Below, piece after piece: positions 1 through 37,025 of a stretch of DNA of 44,180 nt (its first letter is position 1; each line of letters starts with the position of its first letter). The notes under the pieces were generated by a model that saw only the letters and a list, made by a program, of their open reading frames with translations, ran no database searches and was not told where the DNA came from. Location of the stretch: NCBI GenBank assembly GCA_022562935.1, contig JADFOI010000012.1, forward strand, positions 1 through 44,180, read 5' to 3'. The stretch is from Acidobacteriota bacterium (GTDB lineage Bacteria; Acidobacteriota; UBA6911; RPQK01; JADFOI01). Made by a program: the position numbers and the translations under genes.

Positions 1-711
1 GGCCTGGATGAACCATCCATTGCGTTTATTGTGAAACGTAAACGGATCAAAGGGTCCGGTGAATATGACATCGTCCGTATTGACCCATATCGCCTCGGCG
101 CGGAGATCCAGACGTCCCTTGATGGCCTCAAACTCACGGGCGTAACTGAAGTCAATTGCCTGCATGAGCGTATCCGCACCGCTGTATCGTGAGCCGCTAT
201 CGCCCACCCGGCCGGCGAGAATTGAATAGCCAAGCTCGAGTTCTGGGATGGGCAGAAAGCCGATCCTCCCGCCGACAGACTTGTTGTTGTTATTGTCTCG
301 GAAATTATTGAAGCCCAGTTGGCCCGCCGAGACCAAGTTGGAGTTGAAATCCGGGCCATTGATTACATAGGCAGCGTAGTTGATCTTAGTTGGGCCAATG
401 GGGGCCCCGCCACGGATCTGTAATCCTAACCCGGTCTGGCCGACCAGACCTTCCTGGTACAGAAGTGGTATGGTCGGCAGCTTGTTGACCCATGCGGGGT
501 GCCATCGTTCCCAGAAAGTGGCGAAGGGCAGGAGGAACTTGCCTGCGCCCAGGGTGATGTAGTCGTTCACGAGGTAGCTGAACTGGGCGTATTCCAGTTC
601 GACTTCGGTATCGTTTTCGGTTAATGCGAACCCGACCTGAGTCTCAAATAGCAGCCTGTCGGTGGGTTGCCACAGGAACACGGGGGCGAACCCGGCGCCG
701 AAAGTGGAGTC
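1..711 (-). other. Porin-like outer-membrane beta-barrel fragment (internal piece, lacks both ends)
   Basis: These 237 codons form the 3' part of the mutL frame but look like a different protein: alternating hydrophobic strands, aromatic-rich turns, and the phrases LPFATFWERWHPAWVNKLP, GLQIRGGAPIGPTKINYA and VGGRIGFLPIPELELGYS. I recognise this as the style of a Gram-negative porin family whose members read through this stretch after a signal peptide and N-terminal strands, none of which is present here. The family assignment is from memory and moderate. The segment continues beyond the left edge. Confidence 0.6.
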
Positions 712-2340
712 GACCTCCTCCCGGTTCTGAGAAGTGAGTTCATCTAAGATACCCTCAATCAAGAGCTGCGCATCACATTCTCCGGCGAAAGAAGGAACCC
801 CTTTGATGACCAGGGTCTGTTCGCCAAACCACTCCACTTCAAACCCATTGGCGTTGAGCAGATCCAGAATTTGCTCACAGATAGTTTTCTGGTGAAAATT
901 CAACTCATGAGTCAAGGGAATTAAGAGCCGCTGGGTGGCGCAGGAACGGGGAGATTCCATTTGACGAAGGGCCTTATCATAGAGAATTCTCTCGTGAGCT
1001 ACGTGCTGGTCCACCAACAGGACTCCTTCCCGATCGACCGCCACCACGAAACTCTCTACGAACTGCCCCAGGACGACGGGGACGGGGTCAATATAATCGG
1101 TCTCAGGAATGTCCTCGCCATGGACATCCCCGTTGCCGGATGGGCTCAAAGAAGGGAGCATGTTTTCATGGACGACACCGCTGAGCGTTGGATTCGGACT
1201 CCCCAGCATTGGTAGAGGGTTCCCCTGGAGAGAGTGACGCTGAAAAGCCGTGGCCGTGTTCCTGGCCATCCCATGAGTGGAATAGGGGCTAAGCGCGCTT
1301 TCCGGCAGATCTCGAGCCAGATGGGACAGGCTCCTTCGCTCTCCCAGCAGGGCTTCCTCAATTCCGTGGCGAATGGCCTGGTGCACCGAATTGGAGTGTC
1401 TAAAGCGGATCTCGGTCTTACAGGGATGCACGTTGACATCCACCTGCTCGGGATCCACTTCCAGGAAGAGAATGACGGCAGGATAGGCGTTGGCCGGTAT
1501 CAGATCCTGGTAAGCCAATCGGACGGCATGAGTCAGCATGCGATCCCTGATCATGCGTCGGTTGACGTAAAGATATTGTGACCGGGAGCTGGTGCGCTGT
1601 TCGTGGGGAAGGGAAACGAAACCCGAGAGTGCAATTCCATTCTTTTTGTAGTCCACCTGTACTAGATTCTTCAGAAAGGACTCCCCAAAGACCTGGTGAA
1701 TTCGATCCTCGAGATTCTCCACCGCCGTGGCTTCCACAACCGATCTGCCTTGATGCTGAAATTGAAAGGCCACATGGGGATAGGCAATGGCACAATTCAT
1801 CACTTGACGGCTCAAGTGGCCGAGTTCCGTGCTGGTCCTCTTCAAGAACTCACGCCGAACCGGAACGTTAAAGAAAAGGTCCTCCACCCGCACTTCTGTC
1901 CCTGTGGGCCAGGAAATCTCCTTCACCTCCTTCAACTCTCCTCCCTCGGACTCAATCTCGCTCCCTAAGGGCGTGGGCGAGCCTCGTTCAACCGTTCTTA
2001 AGCGGAGTCGAGAAACGGAAGCAATGGAAGGTAGGGCTTCGCCACGGAACCCCAGGGTTTGAAGATGGCTGAGGTCTTCGAAGCTTTGAATCTTGCTGGT
2101 GGCATGATGTTGGAAAGCCAGACGAGCATCCTCCGGACTCATTCCCATGCCATCATCGCGCACGACAATCAGCCGCTTTCCGCCCTCCTCGGCTTCTACC
2201 ACGATTCGCCGAGCCTCGGAATCCAAGGAGTTTTCAAGCAGCTCCTTCAGTACCGATGCAGGGCGCTCCACAACCTCACCGGCTGCGATTTTGTGGGCCA
2301 GGATGTCGGGAAGAAGTCGAACCTTTGCCATCGCCGGCAT
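1..2340 (-). CDS. mutL: MutL mismatch-repair protein fused in frame to a porin-like barrel (partial, runs off window)
   Basis: The frame is open without a stop from ATG 2340 (alternative ATG 2331) to base 1, 780 codons; I translated every codon. Residues 1 to about 340 are the GHKL ATPase of MutL: KIAAGEVVERPASV, DDGMGM, LGFRGEALPSIASVS and DVNVHPCKTEIRF are all visible. A variable linker follows, then the start of the C-terminal dimerisation/endonuclease domain with DQHVAHERILYD at 444-455. MutL similarity ends near ILDELTSQNRE (about 531-541). From about residue 544 the protein becomes an internal piece of an outer-membrane barrel (FGAGFAPVFLWQPTDRLLF, LEYAQFSYLVNDYITLGAG). The last MutL part with the ACR and CPHGRP motifs is missing, and so is the porin signal peptide. 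MutL links MutS to downstream repair; this product should be defective in its C-terminal functions. No good Shine-Dalgarno is seen at either start. Confidence 0.85.
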   Translation of the reverse strand, partial: MPAMAKVRLLPDILAHKIAAGEVVERPASVLKELLENSLDSEARRIVVEAEEGGKRLIVVRDDGMGMSPEDARLAFQHHATSKIQSFEDLSHLQTLGFRGEALPSIASVSRLRLRTVERGSPTPLGSEIESEGGELKEVKEISWPTGTEVRVEDLFFNVPVRREFLKRTSTELGHLSRQVMNCAIAYPHVAFQFQHQGRSVVEATAVENLEDRIHQVFGESFLKNLVQVDYKKNGIALSGFVSLPHEQRTSSRSQYLYVNRRMIRDRMLTHAVRLAYQDLIPANAYPAVILFLEVDPEQVDVNVHPCKTEIRFRHSNSVHQAIRHGIEEALLGERRSLSHLARDLPESALSPYSTHGMARNTATAFQRHSLQGNPLPMLGSPNPTLSGVVHENMLPSLSPSGNGDVHGEDIPETDYIDPVPVVLGQFVESFVVAVDREGVLLVDQHVAHERILYDKALRQMESPRSCATQRLLIPLTHELNFHQKTICEQILDLLNANGFEVEWFGEQTLVIKGVPSFAGECDAQLLIEGILDELTSQNREEVDSTFGAGFAPVFLWQPTDRLLFETQVGFALTENDTEVELEYAQFSYLVNDYITLGAGKFLLPFATFWERWHPAWVNKLPTIPLLYQEGLVGQTGLGLQIRGGAPIGPTKINYAAYVINGPDFNSNLVSAGQLGFNNFRDNNNNKSVGGRIGFLPIPELELGYSILAGRVGDSGSRYSGADTLMQAIDFSYAREFEAIKGRLDLRAEAIWVNTDDVIFTGPFDPFTFHNKRNGWFIQA

Positions 2341-7191: not shown

Positions 7192-10100
7192 AAGTATACA
7201 GGGCTACGGAGTTTTCGCCAAAAAGCTTTTCCACGTCCTGGATAAAAGAGGGGATGGGATTAATCAGAAGATCTTCCTGGGGAATGACCCGAATACGGTA
7301 TTCCTTAAGATGGAGGAGTTCAAATTCCAGGGGGCAGGTCCCCTGGTTATGACTCACTAGCGCATGAAGCTGGGAAATCTTCTCGGAGTTCAGAGAGGGA
7401 AGCGAAATTCGAATTCTCGCTTTCTGAACAACCGTATTCCAAAGAGTGTCCAGGTGGAAAAGTTGCGAGCAGAGCAGACGAATCTCCCCCTTGGCATCCA
7501 GCTCACAGCGTCCTCGAACCAATACCGGCACATCGTTTTCCATCAACTGGCTGTTCCGCTTGTAGGCATTGGGCCAGACCAGGACCTGGACGGTGCCCGA
7601 AAGATCCTCCAGTTCAAAGGCGGCCATCGAAGCTCCCTTGCGGGTACGGAGCTGTCGAAGGCCGGTGATCATTCCACCCACGGATACTTCCTGGCCCGCA
7701 ATCTCCTCAGTGATATCCAGGGTAGAAAACTTCGAAAACTTCTCCAGTTCTCGGACGTAATTTCGAAGTGGATGGCCGGTGACGTAATAGCCCAAAGTCT
7801 CCTTTTCATAAGTCCACTTCTGGCGATCCGGCCATTCTCCGGCATCGGGTATATCCCCAACAGGGCCTCCGGCCGAAGTCATCTCTGGGGCCATAAACAA
7901 CTTCTTTTGACCGCTGAGACGATCTTTTTGAGCCTTCTGTCCAGACTCGATGGCACGATCCAGAAATTCAAAGAGCGACTTGCGATGATATCCCAAGGAA
8001 TCAAAGGAGCCGGCCTTGATCAAGGACTCCAAAGCCCGTCTGTTCACGACCCGCAGATCCACATTCTCACAAAATTCGGAAAAACTGGTGAAGTCATTGT
8101 CTTTAGGCCGACACTTCAAAATGGCACGAATGGCCGACTCTCCGACGTTTCGAATGGCGGCCAGGCCAAACTTGATATCTTTTCCGGAGGCCAGAAAATC
8201 GAGCTGGCTGGCATTGATGTCAGGAGGCACAATGCGAATGCCCATTTCTTTGCATTCGGCCAGATGCTTGACGATCTTGTCCGTGTTGGACATCTCACTG
8301 GTGAGTAAAGCCGCCATAAACTGCACGGGATAATGGGTTTTCAGGTAAGCCGTCTGGTAGGCCAGCAGGGCGTAAGCGGTGGAATGACTTTTGTTGAATC
8401 CGTAGCCGGCAAATTGCTCCATCAACTTAAAAATCCGTTCCGCTTTGATGGCCGGAATGCCTCTTTCCTTGCACCCGCTCAAAAACTGCTTTCTCTGGGC
8501 TTGCATAGCCGTTTTCTTCTTCTTGCCCATGGCCCGCCGCAGAAGGTCCGCTGCTCCAAGAGAAAAACCTGCCAACTTGCTGGCGATCTGCATCACCTGC
8601 TCTTGATAGACAATCACCCCATAGGTTTCCTTGAGAATTTCATCAAGCGCCGCTACTTCATATTCAATTTTTACCTGCCCATGGCGACGTCCGATAAAAT
8701 CGTCGATCATCCCTCCCTGAATGGGGCCCGGGCGGTATAGAGCGTTCAAAGCGATGAGATCTTCAAAGCGGTTGGGTTGCAGGCGCCGTAAAATATCGCG
8801 CATACCCGAAGATTCAAACTGGAAGATGCCGGTCGTTTTTCCTTCACAAAAGAGCTTAAAGGTTTCCTGCTCATTAAGATCGAGCTCGTCCAGAGCCAGG
8901 GTCACCCCGACCTGATCTTTCACTTGCGTCACGGTCTGATGGATGACGGTCAAGGTGGTCAGGGCCAGAAAATCCATCTTCAATAGACCCAGACGCTCCA
9001 GATCCGTCATCGAATACTGGGTCGTGATCTCGTCCTTGGTGCTCTTGTAAAGAGGGATCAAGTCGATCAGCGGCCGGGGCGCGATCACCACTCCAGCCGC
9101 GTGGGTCGAGGCGTGTCGAACCAGCCCTTCCAGCTGCTGGGCAACCTGAATCAATTGGGCGTAAGGGGAATCGCTATGGGCGGCCTCTTTGAGCTCCTTG
9201 ACTCGCTGGACCGCCTTTGCCAGTGTGGCGTCCGGAGTTTGGGGAATCAGGCGGGCGATTTTGTCCACTTCCGCATAGGGGATGTCCAGCCCACGTCCCA
9301 CATCACGAATAGCCCCTCGGGCTGCCATGGTGCCAAAAGTGATGATCTGGCTGACGTTTTCACGGCCGTATTTGGAAGTCACATAGTCGATCACTTCCCC
9401 GCGTCGCAACATGCAGAAATCGATGTCAATGTCGGGAGGAGTGACCCGTTCCGGATTGAGAAAACGCTCGAAGAGAAGATCATATTGAAGGGGGTCCACA
9501 TCGGTGATTCTCATGGCGTAGGAGACCAAAGATCCGGCCACCGATCCTCGGCCCGGACCCACCGGAATCTGATTTTCTCGTGCGTAGCGAATGAAGTCCC
9601 ATACGATCAAAAAATAGCCGGAAAACTGCATCTTCTTGATGATTTCCACTTCCTGCGACAACCGCTTCTCATATTGAGAGAGTGGGTGGCGCAATTCTCC
9701 AAGACTCTCTTTCTGTTTGAGACGTTGAAGGCGGCAGTCAAATCCGTCCTGGACCACTTTCCCGAAATAGCTATCCAGGGTGTGGCCGGAAGGAACTTGA
9801 AATTCGGGAAAGATATTCTTCGGTTCACCGAATTCAAAGGTACACTTCTCGGCCACCTCAAGGGTATTGGAGAGCGCTTCGGGCACATGAGCAAATATGG
9901 AGTCCATCTCCTCGGCATTCTTGAAATAGAACTCATTGGTGCTGTAGCGGAGTCGGTTTTCATCGTGAATGGTCTTGCCGGTCTGGATACAGAGCAGAAC
10001 ATCGTGGGCGAAAGAGTCCTCTTGAGTGAGATAGTGGCAGTCGTTGGTGGCAACCAGAGGAAGATCCAGCTCACGGGCCAGTTTCATCACATGGGAATTG

Positions 10101-10654
10101 ACCTTTTTTTGCTCCTCCAGCCCATGGTCCTGCAGCTCCAGGTAAAAGTTACCCGGCCCCAAAATTTCCGCCAGTTTTCCCGCCTCTTCGCGAGCTTCCG
10201 AGTACTGATCCTGGAGTAGATTCCAGGCCACAATTCCCTTCAGACAGGCGGAAAGTCCCAACAATCCTCCGCTGTACTCCTGGAGAAGCTCCAAGTCGAT
10301 GCGAGGACGATAGTAGAAGCCTTCCAGGTAGCCCAGTGAGACCAACTTGACCAGATTTCTATAACCGGTGGCATCCTTGGCCAAAAGCACCAGATGGTTA
10401 CTCTGGTCGGAACGACCGTTTTTCGATTTACGCCCCTCCCTGGCAACATAAACTTCGCAGCCAATAATGGGCTTGACTCCATATTTGAGAGCCAGGTCAT
10501 GAAACTGAACGGCTCCGAACAGATTGCCATGATCCGATAAGGCAAGGGCCGGCATCTTCAACTCTGCAGCACGGCGCACCACGGCTTCGAGCTGATTGGC
10601 ACCGTCCAGGAGACTGTAATGACTATGCAGGTGCAGGTGAACGAAGTGACTCAT
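7190..10654 (-). CDS. dnaE: DNA polymerase III subunit alpha (DnaE1 type)
   Basis: An 1154-aa replicative polymerase catalytic subunit. In order: a PHP domain (HLHLHSHYSLLDG at 6-18, LSDHG at 39-43, NDCHYL at 204-209), a C-family polymerase core with PDIDIDF at 407-413 supplying catalytic aspartates and LKMDFLALTTLTVI further on, finger motifs (GPGRGSVAGSLVSYA at 366-380), a helix-hairpin-helix region, and an OB fold (VSVGGMITGLRQLRTRKG) near 1000. Length and layout match DnaE1. ATG at 10654 begins right at the conserved N-terminus. The stop TAG lies in the end of an inverted-repeat element. It heads the dnaE-accA-Mut7-C gene string. Confidence 0.97.
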   Translation of the reverse strand: MSHFVHLHLHSHYSLLDGANQLEAVVRRAAELKMPALALSDHGNLFGAVQFHDLALKYGVKPIIGCEVYVAREGRKSKNGRSDQSNHLVLLAKDATGYRNLVKLVSLGYLEGFYYRPRIDLELLQEYSGGLLGLSACLKGIVAWNLLQDQYSEAREEAGKLAEILGPGNFYLELQDHGLEEQKKVNSHVMKLARELDLPLVATNDCHYLTQEDSFAHDVLLCIQTGKTIHDENRLRYSTNEFYFKNAEEMDSIFAHVPEALSNTLEVAEKCTFEFGEPKNIFPEFQVPSGHTLDSYFGKVVQDGFDCRLQRLKQKESLGELRHPLSQYEKRLSQEVEIIKKMQFSGYFLIVWDFIRYARENQIPVGPGRGSVAGSLVSYAMRITDVDPLQYDLLFERFLNPERVTPPDIDIDFCMLRRGEVIDYVTSKYGRENVSQIITFGTMAARGAIRDVGRGLDIPYAEVDKIARLIPQTPDATLAKAVQRVKELKEAAHSDSPYAQLIQVAQQLEGLVRHASTHAAGVVIAPRPLIDLIPLYKSTKDEITTQYSMTDLERLGLLKMDFLALTTLTVIHQTVTQVKDQVGVTLALDELDLNEQETFKLFCEGKTTGIFQFESSGMRDILRRLQPNRFEDLIALNALYRPGPIQGGMIDDFIGRRHGQVKIEYEVAALDEILKETYGVIVYQEQVMQIASKLAGFSLGAADLLRRAMGKKKKTAMQAQRKQFLSGCKERGIPAIKAERIFKLMEQFAGYGFNKSHSTAYALLAYQTAYLKTHYPVQFMAALLTSEMSNTDKIVKHLAECKEMGIRIVPPDINASQLDFLASGKDIKFGLAAIRNVGESAIRAILKCRPKDNDFTSFSEFCENVDLRVVNRRALESLIKAGSFDSLGYHRKSLFEFLDRAIESGQKAQKDRLSGQKKLFMAPEMTSAGGPVGDIPDAGEWPDRQKWTYEKETLGYYVTGHPLRNYVRELEKFSKFSTLDITEEIAGQEVSVGGMITGLRQLRTRKGASMAAFELEDLSGTVQVLVWPNAYKRNSQLMENDVPVLVRGRCELDAKGEIRLLCSQLFHLDTLWNTVVQKARIRISLPSLNSEKISQLHALVSHNQGTCPLEFELLHLKEYRIRVIPQEDLLINPIPSFIQDVEKLFGENSVALYT

Positions 10655-10786
10655 GGATGCTTTTGTTCAGGCGCGCTTTGCGCGCCCGTGCTTTCGTGAC
10701 TTCGTGAGGTTGTCCGGTTCTATTGTTCTTCTCTAACTCTTGTTTCTTTTTTCTATTTTCTATTCTCTACGGAGGAGATGAAGAGT

Positions 10787-10834
10787 TTGGGGACAGTCCC
10801 CGAATTCTAGGAGAATTCTTAGGACGGTCCCCAA
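10787..10834. repeat. Inverted repeat of the GGGGACNGTCCCC type
   Basis: TTGGGGACAGTCCCC (10787-10801) continues to GAATTCT; about 10812-10834 holds the inverted partner ending in GGACGGTCCCCAA. The element lies 20 bp past the guaA stop and about 130 bp upstream of the dnaE start. The motif resembles widespread bacterial REP-like palindromes. Confidence 0.65.
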
Positions 10835-10854
10835 GATTCCCATCCCCCCTCCGT

Positions 10855-12390
10855 TTACTCCCATTCGATGGTACTGGGAGGTTTCGAACTCACGTCGTAA
10901 ACCACACGGTTGACCCCTCGGACTTCATTCACAATCCGGCTAGAGATCCGCCCCAGCAGTTCGTGAGGCAATGGAACCCAGTCGGCAGTCATCCCATCCA
11001 CGGAATGTACGGCACGGATCGCAATGACATTCTCATAGGTTCTTTCATCTCCCATGACACCGACACTCTTGACAGGAAGCAAAACCGCGAACGACTGCCA
11101 AATCTTAGCATAGAGGTCTGCACCTTTTATTTCCTGCTCTACGATCTTGTCCGCCTCTCGCAACGTGTAGAGACGAGCTTCCGTGACCTCGCCGATAATG
11201 CGTACAGACAAACCCGGCCCGGGGAAGGGCTGCCGCTGAATGAGACTTTCCGGGAGTCCCAACTCTTGGCCAACGCGTCGCACCTCATCCTTGAACAGAT
11301 TCTTTAAAGGCTCAACCAGGGAGAGATTCATTTTCTCGGGCAGTCCCCCCACATTGTGGTGGCTCTTGATGGTAGCAGAGGGGCCTAGGACGGAAACTGA
11401 TTCGATCACATCCGGATAGAGGGTGCCTTGAACAAGAAATTGAATCCCGCCCAACTTCTTGGCTTCCCGTTCGAATACGCGGATGAACTGCTCCCCAATA
11501 ATTTTCCGCTTTGCCTCAGGGTCTTCGACTCCGGCCAGAGGTTCCAGAAATTCACGGCCGGCGTCGACACCCACGACATTCAAAGAGAGCTTCTCCTGAA
11601 GTTCCTGGAGTACTTCCTCGAATTCATTCTTTCTGAGTAATCCATTGTCGACAAAGATGCAGGTGAGCCGATCACCGATGGCGCGATCAACCAGCGTCGC
11701 TGCCACCGTAGAATCGACCCCGCCTGAGAGGCCACAGACCGCTTGAGACTGACCGATTTGGGCGGAAATCTCGGTGACCGCACTTTCTGCAAAAGAGGAC
11801 ATCGTCCAATCTGCGCGGCACTTACAGATCTCAAGGAGAAAGTTTTTCAGGATCTGTTTGCCGCAGGGAGTGTGAACGACTTCAGGATGAAACTGAATAC
11901 CATAGATTTTTCGATCTTCATGGGCCATGCCGGCAAGGGCATTCTCACTTCGCCCGATGACAACAAAATCGGGTGGAAGAGTTTCAATCCGGTCTCCGTG
12001 ACTCATCCACACCTCAGTTTTCTTGGGCAAGTCCTGAAAAAGAGGGCTCCCGTCAACGATCTGGAGTATGGCCTTGCCGTATTCTCGATTCTGCGAAGGA
12101 GACACCTTTCCCCCGTAGTGGTGAGCCATGAGCTGCATTCCATAGCAGATCCCCAGGAGGGGGCCTTGAAAGTCGTAGAGTTCTTTCTCGGGATGGGGAG
12201 CCCCTTCGGCGAACACCGAATCGGGTCCTCCCGAGAGCACAATTCCCATGGGATGACGGGCTTCGATTTCCTTCCAGGAGGTGTTAAAAGGCAGGATTTC
12301 CGAGTACACTCCAGCCTCACGAATGCGGCGGGCAATCAGCTGAGCATACTGGGACCCAAAGTCAAGGATGAGAACGGTTTCTTGAGTCAT
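10855..12390 (-). CDS. guaA: GMP synthase (glutamine-hydrolysing)
   Basis: A 511-aa enzyme turning XMP, ATP and glutamine into GMP. The N-terminal class I glutamine amidotransferase has Cys82 in GICYGMQ and His168/Glu170 in IQFHPEV. The ATP-pyrophosphatase domain has the P-loop SGGVDS at 222-227, and the C-terminal dimerisation domain ends in the family signature PPSTIEWE. Length is normal. ATG at 12390 gives the typical N-terminus [20 protein letters not shown]. It is divergent from uppP across a 92-bp spacer that contains an extended -10-like box for this gene. Confidence 0.97.
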
Positions 12391-16761: not shown

Positions 16762-16909
16762 GTCAGGCTTGCAGAGACCTCCGGAATGTGGGAGGCACCT
16801 CAGGTGCCGAATCCGAGAACAAATGGGGGTAGTCACCTTGTGCTGGAGGGTGACAGCTATTTCAGGAATTGAGTTGTTCGGCACCTGAGGTGCCTCCCAC
16901 ATTCCAGAG
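16762..16909. repeat. Nested-palindrome intergenic element, copy 2
   Basis: Arms 16779-16811 and 16877-16909 are inverted with one mismatch around a 65-nt loop, against 29 nt in copy 1. Each arm carries GGCACCTSAGGTGCC. The left flank (GTCAGG, AGAGA) is also shared with copy 1 at 2379. Confidence 0.85.
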
Positions 16910-20596: not shown

Positions 20597-20631
20597 TTTG
20601 TGCTGCCGTCCCTTTGTGACGGCAGCACAAA
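20597..20631. repeat. Perfect 14-bp-stem hairpin after recN
   Basis: TTTGTGCTGCCGTC (20597-20610) and GACGGCAGCACAAA (20618-20631) pair perfectly around CCTTTGT. It sits 10 bases past the recN stop and about 45 bases before the miaB start. No U-tract follows, so it may stabilise mRNA ends or be a dispersed repeat (compare 34359-34468). Confidence 0.75.
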
Positions 20632-20640
20632 GGGACGAAG

Positions 20641-22323
20641 TCATGAAGTAACGAAATCCTTCCCTCTCCGCAACAATTCTCTAGCCTGCTTACGGGTGGT
20701 TTCCGTTAAGGCCTTCCCTGCCATCATTCTTGAGAGTTCCTCCACTCTTGCCCTCTGTTCAAGAGGAACAATCTCAACGATGGTTCGCTCGGCGCTGTGG
20801 CGCTTGGTGACATAAAAATGCTGGGAAGCATATGAGGCGACTTGTGGAAGGTGGGTCACGCAAAAGACCTGGTGCACAGTTCCCAGACGGGCTAGCTTTT
20901 CTCCGATGGTGGAGGCAACTCGGCCGCCAATGCCTGCATCCACCTCATCGAAAACCAAGGTCTTCGAATACTTCTCCAGAGTGAGAATCGATTTCAGAGC
21001 CAGCACGGTTCGAGACAATTCTCCTCCAGAAGCGATCTTAGACAAGGGTTTTGAGGATTCACCTAGATTGGCACTGATCAGAAATTCCACCTGGTCCATT
21101 CCCTGTTCAGTGGTCCTTTCATCTGAGGTGTTTACCTGTACCGTGAAAGCGGCGCTTCCCATGTGCAAATCGGTTAGTTCACGTTCCACTTGCTTGCTGA
21201 GCATCTTAGCTTGCTGGTGTCTGCTCCTGGAAAGGCGCTGGGCCAGTGCTCGATATTTGCTCTCCAGTTGACTCTCCTTCTCAACCAGTTGCTCTATTTC
21301 GGCTTCACATTGGGAGAGCTCGTGGACTTCCTGTTGGGCCTTTTCGAGATAAGCCAGAATCTCATCCACGGTTTCCCCGTATTTTCGGCGGGCCTTTTGA
21401 ATTTCCGAAAGCCTCTCCTGAACAGCGTCCAGGCGTCCCGGGTTGGACTCAATTTGATTCGTATAGTCGCGAAGCTGGTAGGCCACCTCTTCCAGCAGGT
21501 AACGTGAATCACGCAGTTTCACCATCACCGGCTCCAGCTGAGGGTCCATACCACGAAGTTCTTCCAATTCTTTCATTGCCCGATGCAGCAGACTTAACGA
21601 GGACTCTTCTCGTTCATAAATGTCCTGATAGGCCCGTTGCGATGCGTTCAGGCGTTTTTCTGCACTGGCCAAAAGCCCTTGTTCTGCTTCCAGCTCCACG
21701 TCTAGGCCGGTTCTCAACTGAAGCTTTTCAATGTCGGCAGTTTGGAACTGGAGGGTGTCGAGTCTCTGCAGTCTTTCCTGCTCGCTGGCCTGCAGGCGCT
21801 CCAGTTCTGAACGAACTCCCTGGAGCAGATGAAAGGCCTCTCTTACCTGTTGTGACAATTGTTCGTGAGCGCTGAAGGCATCCAGAAATTGCAATTGAAC
21901 GCTGGGTCGCAAGAGGAGTTGCTGCTCGTGCTGTCCGTGAATATCCGCTAAAAGTGCCCCCAGCTGGGAAAGCGTAGCCAGTGGACTCAAAACCCCGTTG
22001 ATAAAGACCTTGTTGGAACCCGACCGGGAGATATCCCGGCGGATAATAAGTTCCCCGCCCTCCAGCGGAATCCCCGCATCAGCAAGACACACTCGTGCCG
22101 GATGTTCTCTGGAGAGCTCAAAGATTCCCTCCACTCGGGCCTGATCAAAGCCCTGACGAACCATTTCCTGAGAGGCACGCCCTCCCACCAGCAAGCCTAC
22201 AGCATCCACCAGAATGGATTTCCCCGATCCGGTTTCACCGGTGATCAGATTCAGCCCCTGGCTGAATTCAATTTCCAGACGATCGATCAGAGCAAAATCC
22301 TTAATGGAGAGGAACTTCAGCAT
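20641..22323 (-). CDS. recN: DNA repair protein RecN
   Basis: A 560-aa SMC-like ATPase that acts at double-strand breaks. Walker A is GETGSGKS at 29-36, followed by a long coiled-coil middle (about 150-390), the ABC signature SGGELSR and the Walker B LVFDEVDAGIGGRVA near 470. Length and order match RecN. ATG 22323 starts the typical MLKFLSIKDFALID. It is probably co-directional with miaB and the BFN gene; a strong hairpin lies after its stop. Confidence 0.95.
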   Translation of the reverse strand: MLKFLSIKDFALIDRLEIEFSQGLNLITGETGSGKSILVDAVGLLVGGRASQEMVRQGFDQARVEGIFELSREHPARVCLADAGIPLEGGELIIRRDISRSGSNKVFINGVLSPLATLSQLGALLADIHGQHEQQLLLRPSVQLQFLDAFSAHEQLSQQVREAFHLLQGVRSELERLQASEQERLQRLDTLQFQTADIEKLQLRTGLDVELEAEQGLLASAEKRLNASQRAYQDIYEREESSLSLLHRAMKELEELRGMDPQLEPVMVKLRDSRYLLEEVAYQLRDYTNQIESNPGRLDAVQERLSEIQKARRKYGETVDEILAYLEKAQQEVHELSQCEAEIEQLVEKESQLESKYRALAQRLSRSRHQQAKMLSKQVERELTDLHMGSAAFTVQVNTSDERTTEQGMDQVEFLISANLGESSKPLSKIASGGELSRTVLALKSILTLEKYSKTLVFDEVDAGIGGRVASTIGEKLARLGTVHQVFCVTHLPQVASYASQHFYVTKRHSAERTIVEIVPLEQRARVEELSRMMAGKALTETTRKQARELLRRGKDFVTS

Positions 22324-34532: not shown

Positions 34533-37025
34533 ATGAAAGATCTGAGTCCCATGATGCGCCAGTATCATGACATCAAGCGGAAGCATCCCGGCATGCTGTT
34601 GTTCTTCCGCTTGGGTGATTTCTATGAGATGTTCTACGAAGATGCCATCTTAGCTAGCCGCGAGCTGGAAATCACCCTTACCTCCCGCAACCGCGACCGT
34701 AGGGGCGATCCCATCCCTATGTGCGGAGTGCCCCATCATGCAGTCAACAACTATCTGGCCCGGCTCGTCAGGAAAGGTCACAAGGTGGCTCTTTGTGAGC
34801 AAACCGAAGATCCGCGTCAGGTGAAAGGGATTGTGCGTCGTGAGGTTACAAGAATTGTTACCCCGGGAACGACCATCGAGGAAGGCCTGCTGGATTCCAA
34901 AGAAAATAATTTCATCGCCGGTTTGGTGGAGAGACAGGAGCGCGTGGGCGCTTCTTTTCTTGATCTCTCCACCGGAGAGTTCTTGCTGAGTGAGTTCTCA
35001 GGTACCCAGGCTTGGGCAGAGATGAAGCAAGAACTGGTGCATTTTCAGCCGCGCGAACTGATTCTCTCCGAGGAACAGCAGGAGAAGCTCTCCGGTCAAG
35101 TTCCCGCTGACTTGCGAGACCGGACTGTCAAAACTCTTCAGTCTCAGTGGACCTTCAATCTGGATTACTGCAAGCGCATTCTGCTCGAGCATTTTCAGGT
35201 ATCCACCCTGGATGGGTTCGGGCTCAACGGACACCAGGCGGCCATTTGTGCGGCGGGAGCTCTGCTGCACTATGTGAAGGAGACCCAGAAATCACAACTG
35301 GCTCATATCACCCATCTGAATCTTCTTGAAACCAGCCGGTATCTGAAACTGGACGAATCCACGGTTCTGAATCTGGAGTTGGTCCAAGGTTTTGACGGAA
35401 ACAAGCAATGGACTCTCCTGGCTGTTATGGACCTGACGGAAACGGCCATGGGAGCGCGCCTGTTGCGAAGCTGGTTGCTGAGGCCAAGCCTGGAATTGAC
35501 CCGGATCAATGAACGTTTGGATGCCATTCAGGAATTGTCGCAGTCGGTAGTGGGCATGGACCGCCTTAGCCAGGTCTTCAAAGCCATTCAGGATTTGGAG
35601 CGGCTTCTCTCCCGCATCACCATGGAAACGGCAAACGCCCGAGATTTGCTGGCTCTGAAAAATTCTCTACAGCAACTTCCGAAAGTCTCTGAACTGCTGG
35701 ATGGTTACAGCAGTCGCCTGCTCTCTTCCCAGCTGGATCTCCTGCAAGATCTGGTTCAGCTGTTGGAAAAGGCTATTGCCGAGGATCCTCCCGTGGGATT
35801 GAATGAAGGAGGTCTGATCCGGAGCCGCTTCCACTCAGAATTGGATGAACTGCGCGAGATTACACGTTCAGGAAAGTCTTTCATTGCCCGTCTGGAATCC
35901 CAGGAGCGCGAGAAAACGGCTATTCCTTCCCTTAAAGTCAAATACAACAAGGTGTTTGGTTATTTCATCGAGATCACCAAAACTCACCTGGCTTCCGTTC
36001 CAGCTCACTACATCCGCAAACAGACACTGGTGGGATCCGAGCGTTATATTACCCCTGAACTGAAAGAGTACGAAGAAAAGGTCCTCACCGCCCAGGAGAA
36101 GATCTTCGAGCTTGAGAAAAAACTGTTTTTTGAGCTCCGCAAGCAGGTGGGTCAGCAGGCCCAACGTATTCAACAAACGGCTCAGACCATCGCCTGCATC
36201 GACTGCTTAGTGGCTCTTGCACAAGCGGCCAAGAAATACCGTTACGTTCGACCCCATTTGGATGAGAGCCACGAGATGGCCATTCGGGGAGGACGCCATC
36301 CGGTTGTGGAGCTTCAAAACAGCGATCCCTTTGTTCCCAACGACCTACTCTGTCAGGCCGACGGGGATCAACTGTTGATTCTAACCGGACCCAACATGGG
36401 TGGAAAATCAACCTATCTTCGTCAAAATGCCCTCATCGTGATCATGGCTCAGATGGGCTCTTTTGTTCCGGCTGATGAGGCCCACATCGGCGTTGTCGAC
36501 CGAATTTTCACTCGCGTGGGTGCCAGTGATAATCTGGCCCGGGGACGATCCACTTTTATGGTGGAAATGATTGAAACAGCCACCATCCTGAATTCCGCTA
36601 CTCCGCGGAGTTTTATCTTACTGGATGAAGTAGGCCGCGGAACCGCCACCTTTGATGGGTTATCCATTGCCTGGTCTGTAGCGGAGTATTTGCTCACCCA
36701 GGAGAAGCGAAAGGCTCGAACCTTATTTGCTACCCATTATCACGAGTTGACCAAACTGGAGGCACTGTATGCAGGAGCAAAAAACTATTGTGTGAGAGTC
36801 CAGGAATCCAACCAGAAGATCGTTTTCTTTCACCGTGTAGCCCCGGGCGTAGCCAGCAAAAGTTACGGTATTGAAGTAGCGCGTCTGGCCGGCTTGCCCC
36901 AGGGGGTCATCGGCAGGGCTCGAGAGATTCTCTCACGCCTGGAGCGCAAGGAGCTCAAGCTTTTGGGCCACTCTCACCCAACCGCTGCCGCCATAACCGA
37001 CGAGTTGCAGAAGAAGCTGTTCTAG
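34533..37025 (+). CDS. mutS: DNA mismatch repair protein MutS
   Basis: An 830-aa MutS1. The mismatch-reading domain has the Phe-X-Glu motif in GDFYEMF (Phe30, Glu32). Connector, lever and clamp domains follow, then the ATPase with Walker A GPNMGGKST at 619-627, Walker B ILLDEVGRG with Asp698-Glu699, and ATHYHEL after it. The C-terminal tail is short. All key residues are intact, in contrast to the broken mutL in the same window. ATG 34533 gives the expected N-terminus (SPMMRQYHDIKRKHPG). Confidence 0.97.
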   Translation: MKDLSPMMRQYHDIKRKHPGMLLFFRLGDFYEMFYEDAILASRELEITLTSRNRDRRGDPIPMCGVPHHAVNNYLARLVRKGHKVALCEQTEDPRQVKGIVRREVTRIVTPGTTIEEGLLDSKENNFIAGLVERQERVGASFLDLSTGEFLLSEFSGTQAWAEMKQELVHFQPRELILSEEQQEKLSGQVPADLRDRTVKTLQSQWTFNLDYCKRILLEHFQVSTLDGFGLNGHQAAICAAGALLHYVKETQKSQLAHITHLNLLETSRYLKLDESTVLNLELVQGFDGNKQWTLLAVMDLTETAMGARLLRSWLLRPSLELTRINERLDAIQELSQSVVGMDRLSQVFKAIQDLERLLSRITMETANARDLLALKNSLQQLPKVSELLDGYSSRLLSSQLDLLQDLVQLLEKAIAEDPPVGLNEGGLIRSRFHSELDELREITRSGKSFIARLESQEREKTAIPSLKVKYNKVFGYFIEITKTHLASVPAHYIRKQTLVGSERYITPELKEYEEKVLTAQEKIFELEKKLFFELRKQVGQQAQRIQQTAQTIACIDCLVALAQAAKKYRYVRPHLDESHEMAIRGGRHPVVELQNSDPFVPNDLLCQADGDQLLILTGPNMGGKSTYLRQNALIVIMAQMGSFVPADEAHIGVVDRIFTRVGASDNLARGRSTFMVEMIETATILNSATPRSFILLDEVGRGTATFDGLSIAWSVAEYLLTQEKRKARTLFATHYHELTKLEALYAGAKNYCVRVQESNQKIVFFHRVAPGVASKSYGIEVARLAGLPQGVIGRAREILSRLERKELKLLGHSHPTAAAITDELQKKLF

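Follow-up and report, generated by a model that had tools for sequence, protein, structure and literature searches.

The fusion of mutL to an outer-membrane porin that appears at the left end of the window (44,180 nucleotides, the whole of contig C7 in host genome G000, with window base 1 the contig end) is, at a probability that we put at roughly 0.95, an artefact of assembly; the stretch from base 1 to about 735 would be a chimeric contig end. The joint lies some 735 bases from the first base of the contig, and the sequence beyond it is akin to that of another phylum. The host genome is a set of 188 contigs, estimated to be 89.3% complete; among named genomes, those nearest to it are Acidobacteriota metagenome bins. 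We refer to the following features of the contig:

Bases 1–738, minus strand: internal fragment of a planctomycete-type (Porin_O_P-like) porin, foreign to the host and running off the contig start (homology)
Bases 709–714, no strand assigned: GTCGAC (SalI) hexamer, native porin codons V-D (homologous porin L105; 14 occurrences in the window)
Bases 729–741, minus strand: joint, where MutL homology stops and porin homology starts (alignments)
Bases 741–2340, minus strand: mutL, codons 1 to about 533–537, cut at the joint, host sequence (TIGR00585, Pfam, homology)

The open frame, the joint and the porin fragment

Working leftwards from the ATG of mutL at 2340, we see that the minus-strand frame remains open as far as base 1 (780 codons, no stops), as the initial annotation had described in reporting a stop-free passage from MutL into porin. 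Any two coding pieces that are joined on the same strand have roughly a one-in-three chance of being in frame; the open frame across the joint therefore adds little.

The mutL part is clearly recognisable, matching the TIGR00585 MutL equivalog at 3e-156 and containing Pfam domains PF13589, PF02518 and PF01119, that is, the N-terminal GHKL ATPase and the DNA_mis_repair domain. The C-terminal dimerisation domain is incomplete—MutL_C covers only positions 1–119 of a 142-position profile—and the end of MutL is therefore missing on C7, as is the start of the porin, both absences having been remarked on at the outset. The gene is 63–64% identical to mutL of a genome from the same family, aspS preceding mutL in both, and the relative nearest to its body is G005, followed by other members of the order.

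Alignments to close relatives place the end of MutL homology at codons 535–538, and that to planctomycete porins places the start of porin homology at codons 535–536, with TSQNREEVDSTFGA aligned to TYQDRDNVDSTFGA; here TSQNREEVDST of C7 pairs with TYQDRDNVDST of the planctomycete protein. The joint therefore falls at about 729–741, and the residues SQNRE, previously assigned to MutL, belong by alignment to the porin. The GTCGAC hexamer, which had been taken to mark the joint as a SalI ligation site, in fact sits about 20 bases inside the porin; the homologous porin L105 carries the identical hexamer at the same codons, and the window contains 14 copies in all. A SalI cloning or ligation joint can thus be ruled out.

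The porin part matches residues 139–384 of a 469-amino-acid planctomycete porin along the whole of bases 1–738, so that signal peptide and N-terminal region are absent, as is the end of the protein; neither remainder (approximately 138 N-terminal and 85 C-terminal residues) was found in the host genome. Its close relatives are exclusively planctomycetes: the fragment is 64–73% identical to porins of a single order (in six genomes, at 65–73% by the figures that the search itself gives, one of these matches being partial), with two further matches in that order at 47% and 32%. The host's own family gives 24–38% identity, over parts of the fragment only, and a porin of the host itself was rejected as the source, the copy on contig C90 and its orthologue in the genus being just 38% identical over a short stretch. 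Whilst the fragment alone gives no significant Pfam match, a full-length relative matches PF07396 (Porin_O_P) at 2.1e-5, above the cut-off. Two planctomycete genomes were checked, and in both of them the porin gene is independent of mutL and located on a different contig. Base composition is uninformative as a test of this joint, the porin fragment and the flanking host DNA having GC contents of 0.556 and 0.564, respectively; it is informative for contig C109 (see below).

The rest of mutL lies beside rRNA genes on contig C109

Used as a query against the host genome, the C-terminal MutL tail of G005, a member of the same family, gave a match at 20611–20814 of contig C109, which extended to 20832 when the host tail itself took its place. 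The missing tail therefore occupies 20611 to about 20832, on the minus strand and in an open frame; that the remainder of mutL might turn up elsewhere had been named by the initial annotation as evidence against a real fusion. The tail follows the same ranking as the body of the gene, G005 being nearest (87% identity over 68 residues, 88% over 67 and 84% over 74) and other members of the order coming next. Its neighbours, encoded on the other strand and convergent with it, are a 5S rRNA gene and a complete 23S rRNA gene; three further members of the order (L034, L035 and L048) likewise have convergent 5S and 23S genes directly after mutL. From this tail and its conserved rRNA context we infer that C7 and C109 are probably chromosomal neighbours that meet inside mutL, a placement made by homology and synteny rather than by overlap. 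The two mutL pieces end about 7–9 codons apart, with the intervening codons unrepresented, and no stretch of 12 or more identical bases is common to the end of C109 and the first 1000 bases of C7; a shared word of that size leading to a wrong path in the assembly graph is accordingly ruled out.

Two other features of this region can be recorded. The 23S and 5S genes (L055:15408–18612, on C109) have no 16S match in the 15.4 kb upstream in L055, and the rRNA operon is therefore unlinked or broken at this point. A low-complexity run of the GAATTTGGGATTTGGAATTTG type (L055:18700–18790) separates the 5S gene from the mutL tail.

Past the tail, C109 ends in ~960 bases (20832–21792; L055:19040–20000) that encode the C-terminus of a different MutL, on the opposite strand and head to head with the host tail. 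This domain is 38–39% identical to that of the host, its best matches among the loci compared are 34–43% identical, and its GC content is 0.64, as against 0.54 in C109 ahead of the rRNA genes. Judged from its sequence, the right end of C109 is a second chimeric contig end; both of the contigs due to meet inside mutL thus bear 0.7–1 kb of unrelated DNA at that place.

Across the assembly, steps in GC of more than 0.07 are commoner at contig ends (11 of 82) than in interior stretches (16 of 478), a comparison that is indicative only, since the interior windows overlap. The right end of contig C14 (~9950–10927; L090:2000–3000) rises from ~0.52 to 0.65 in its last ~1 kb, and could be either a further chimeric end or a phage cargo gene; the rise comes after a gene resembling a phage terminase large subunit. 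Separately, a near-palindrome of 19–20 bases, GGGAGGCACCTCAGGTGCC, occurs singly or as inverted pairs, mostly ~50–130 bases apart, including at 2406–2478 and 16790–16898 of the window. The genome holds 77 such sites (with at most one mismatch), against none for the reversed control pattern, and several copies lie within ~120 bases of contig ends; from its sequence the repeat looks like one of REP/REPIN type.

Assembly artefact, insertion or fusion

How the two contigs came to be in this state can be set out as follows. A piece of a planctomycete-type porin gene from another organism would have been joined to the mutL of the host; we infer that the join was made by the assembler, or was already present in a chimeric read or in a chimeric molecule from PCR or library preparation. 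The real mutL would continue leftwards for a further ~80 codons, into C109 at ~20832, and beyond its end the chromosome would meet the convergent 5S and 23S rRNA genes. At its facing end C109 would have undergone the same thing, with the final ~960 bases deriving from the MutL C-terminus of a different organism. An artefact had been among the readings offered by the initial annotation, and its core, that the left end belongs elsewhere, is strongly supported; the boundary is at ~735 rather than ~711, and the source appears to be another organism rather than another part of this genome.

Foreign sequence flanks the break in mutL on both sides, as would be expected if a single insert, spanning the unassembled stretch and ending in the porin fragment (C7) and the other MutL C-terminus (C109), had inactivated the gene in the host. 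In this event the strain would carry a true foreign insertion or rearrangement, by which mutL is interrupted and its body is linked in frame to part of a porin gained by horizontal transfer. We consider this very improbable. Given the lack of a shared exact word of at least 12 bases, the mutL pieces of C7 and C109 show no target duplication of that size, and the 7–9 codons between them seem to be missing rather than duplicated; an incomplete gene would be required at each end of the insert, the two seemingly of different origin, and neither end has a visible transposase or recombinase. A genuine MutL–porin fusion gene, generated by deletion or rearrangement within the host genome, accounts for the 780-codon frame across the joint and yet is, if anything, harder still to credit: the porin does not belong to this lineage, and the mutL tail has been neither lost nor displaced, lying as it does in an rRNA context conserved in the order. 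The same observations tell against the earlier suggestion of a deletion joining two same-strand genes. The product of such a fusion would, moreover, lack both an export signal and the C-terminal tail of MutL with its CPHGRP motif.

The relatives also speak against either event. Across 38 genomes of the class, and in the matches listed for 396 phylum genomes, there is neither a mutL–porin fusion with this joint nor an insert of this kind; a fusion shared with relatives, which the initial annotation had named as evidence against a chimera, was not seen there. In three other genomes of the phylum, MutL matches sit in unusually long open frames of 831–925 codons, compared with ~620 (G282:C1:666814, G065:C36:176451 and G156:C47:138227), which may be real extensions or read-through.

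Read as a chimeric end, the case is of interest purely as a warning. C7 should lose its first ~735 bases and C109 its last ~960, after which the contigs belong side by side; left untrimmed, the record would contain a mutL cut short and a spurious fusion protein, and would falsely suggest a mutator. With both pieces of mutL present, and mutS complete within the window (34533–37025), no mutator state can be deduced, contrary to the ‘likely mutator background’ first proposed. Further ends of the same assembly may need similar scrutiny.

Comparison with known systems

Set beside bacterial MutL (TIGR00585), the host part is an ordinary member of the family with ATPase and dimerisation domains, differing in that the C7 copy stops ~80 codons short at the joint, the remainder being on C109. 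The porin part, in turn, aligns end to end with an internal section of the planctomycete Porin_O_P-like protein (PF07396), from which it differs in being a fragment with both termini absent from the genome. The closest parallel to the arrangement as a whole is provided by metagenome assemblies in which misassembled contig ends hide the overlaps between contigs, an effect blamed on chimeric contigs or chimeric reads (PMC4270193). As in that study, the foreign sequence is confined to the terminus, and the true neighbouring contig is broken too, with the overlap going unrecognised; the contigs described there are viral, whereas those described here come from a bacterial genome bin.
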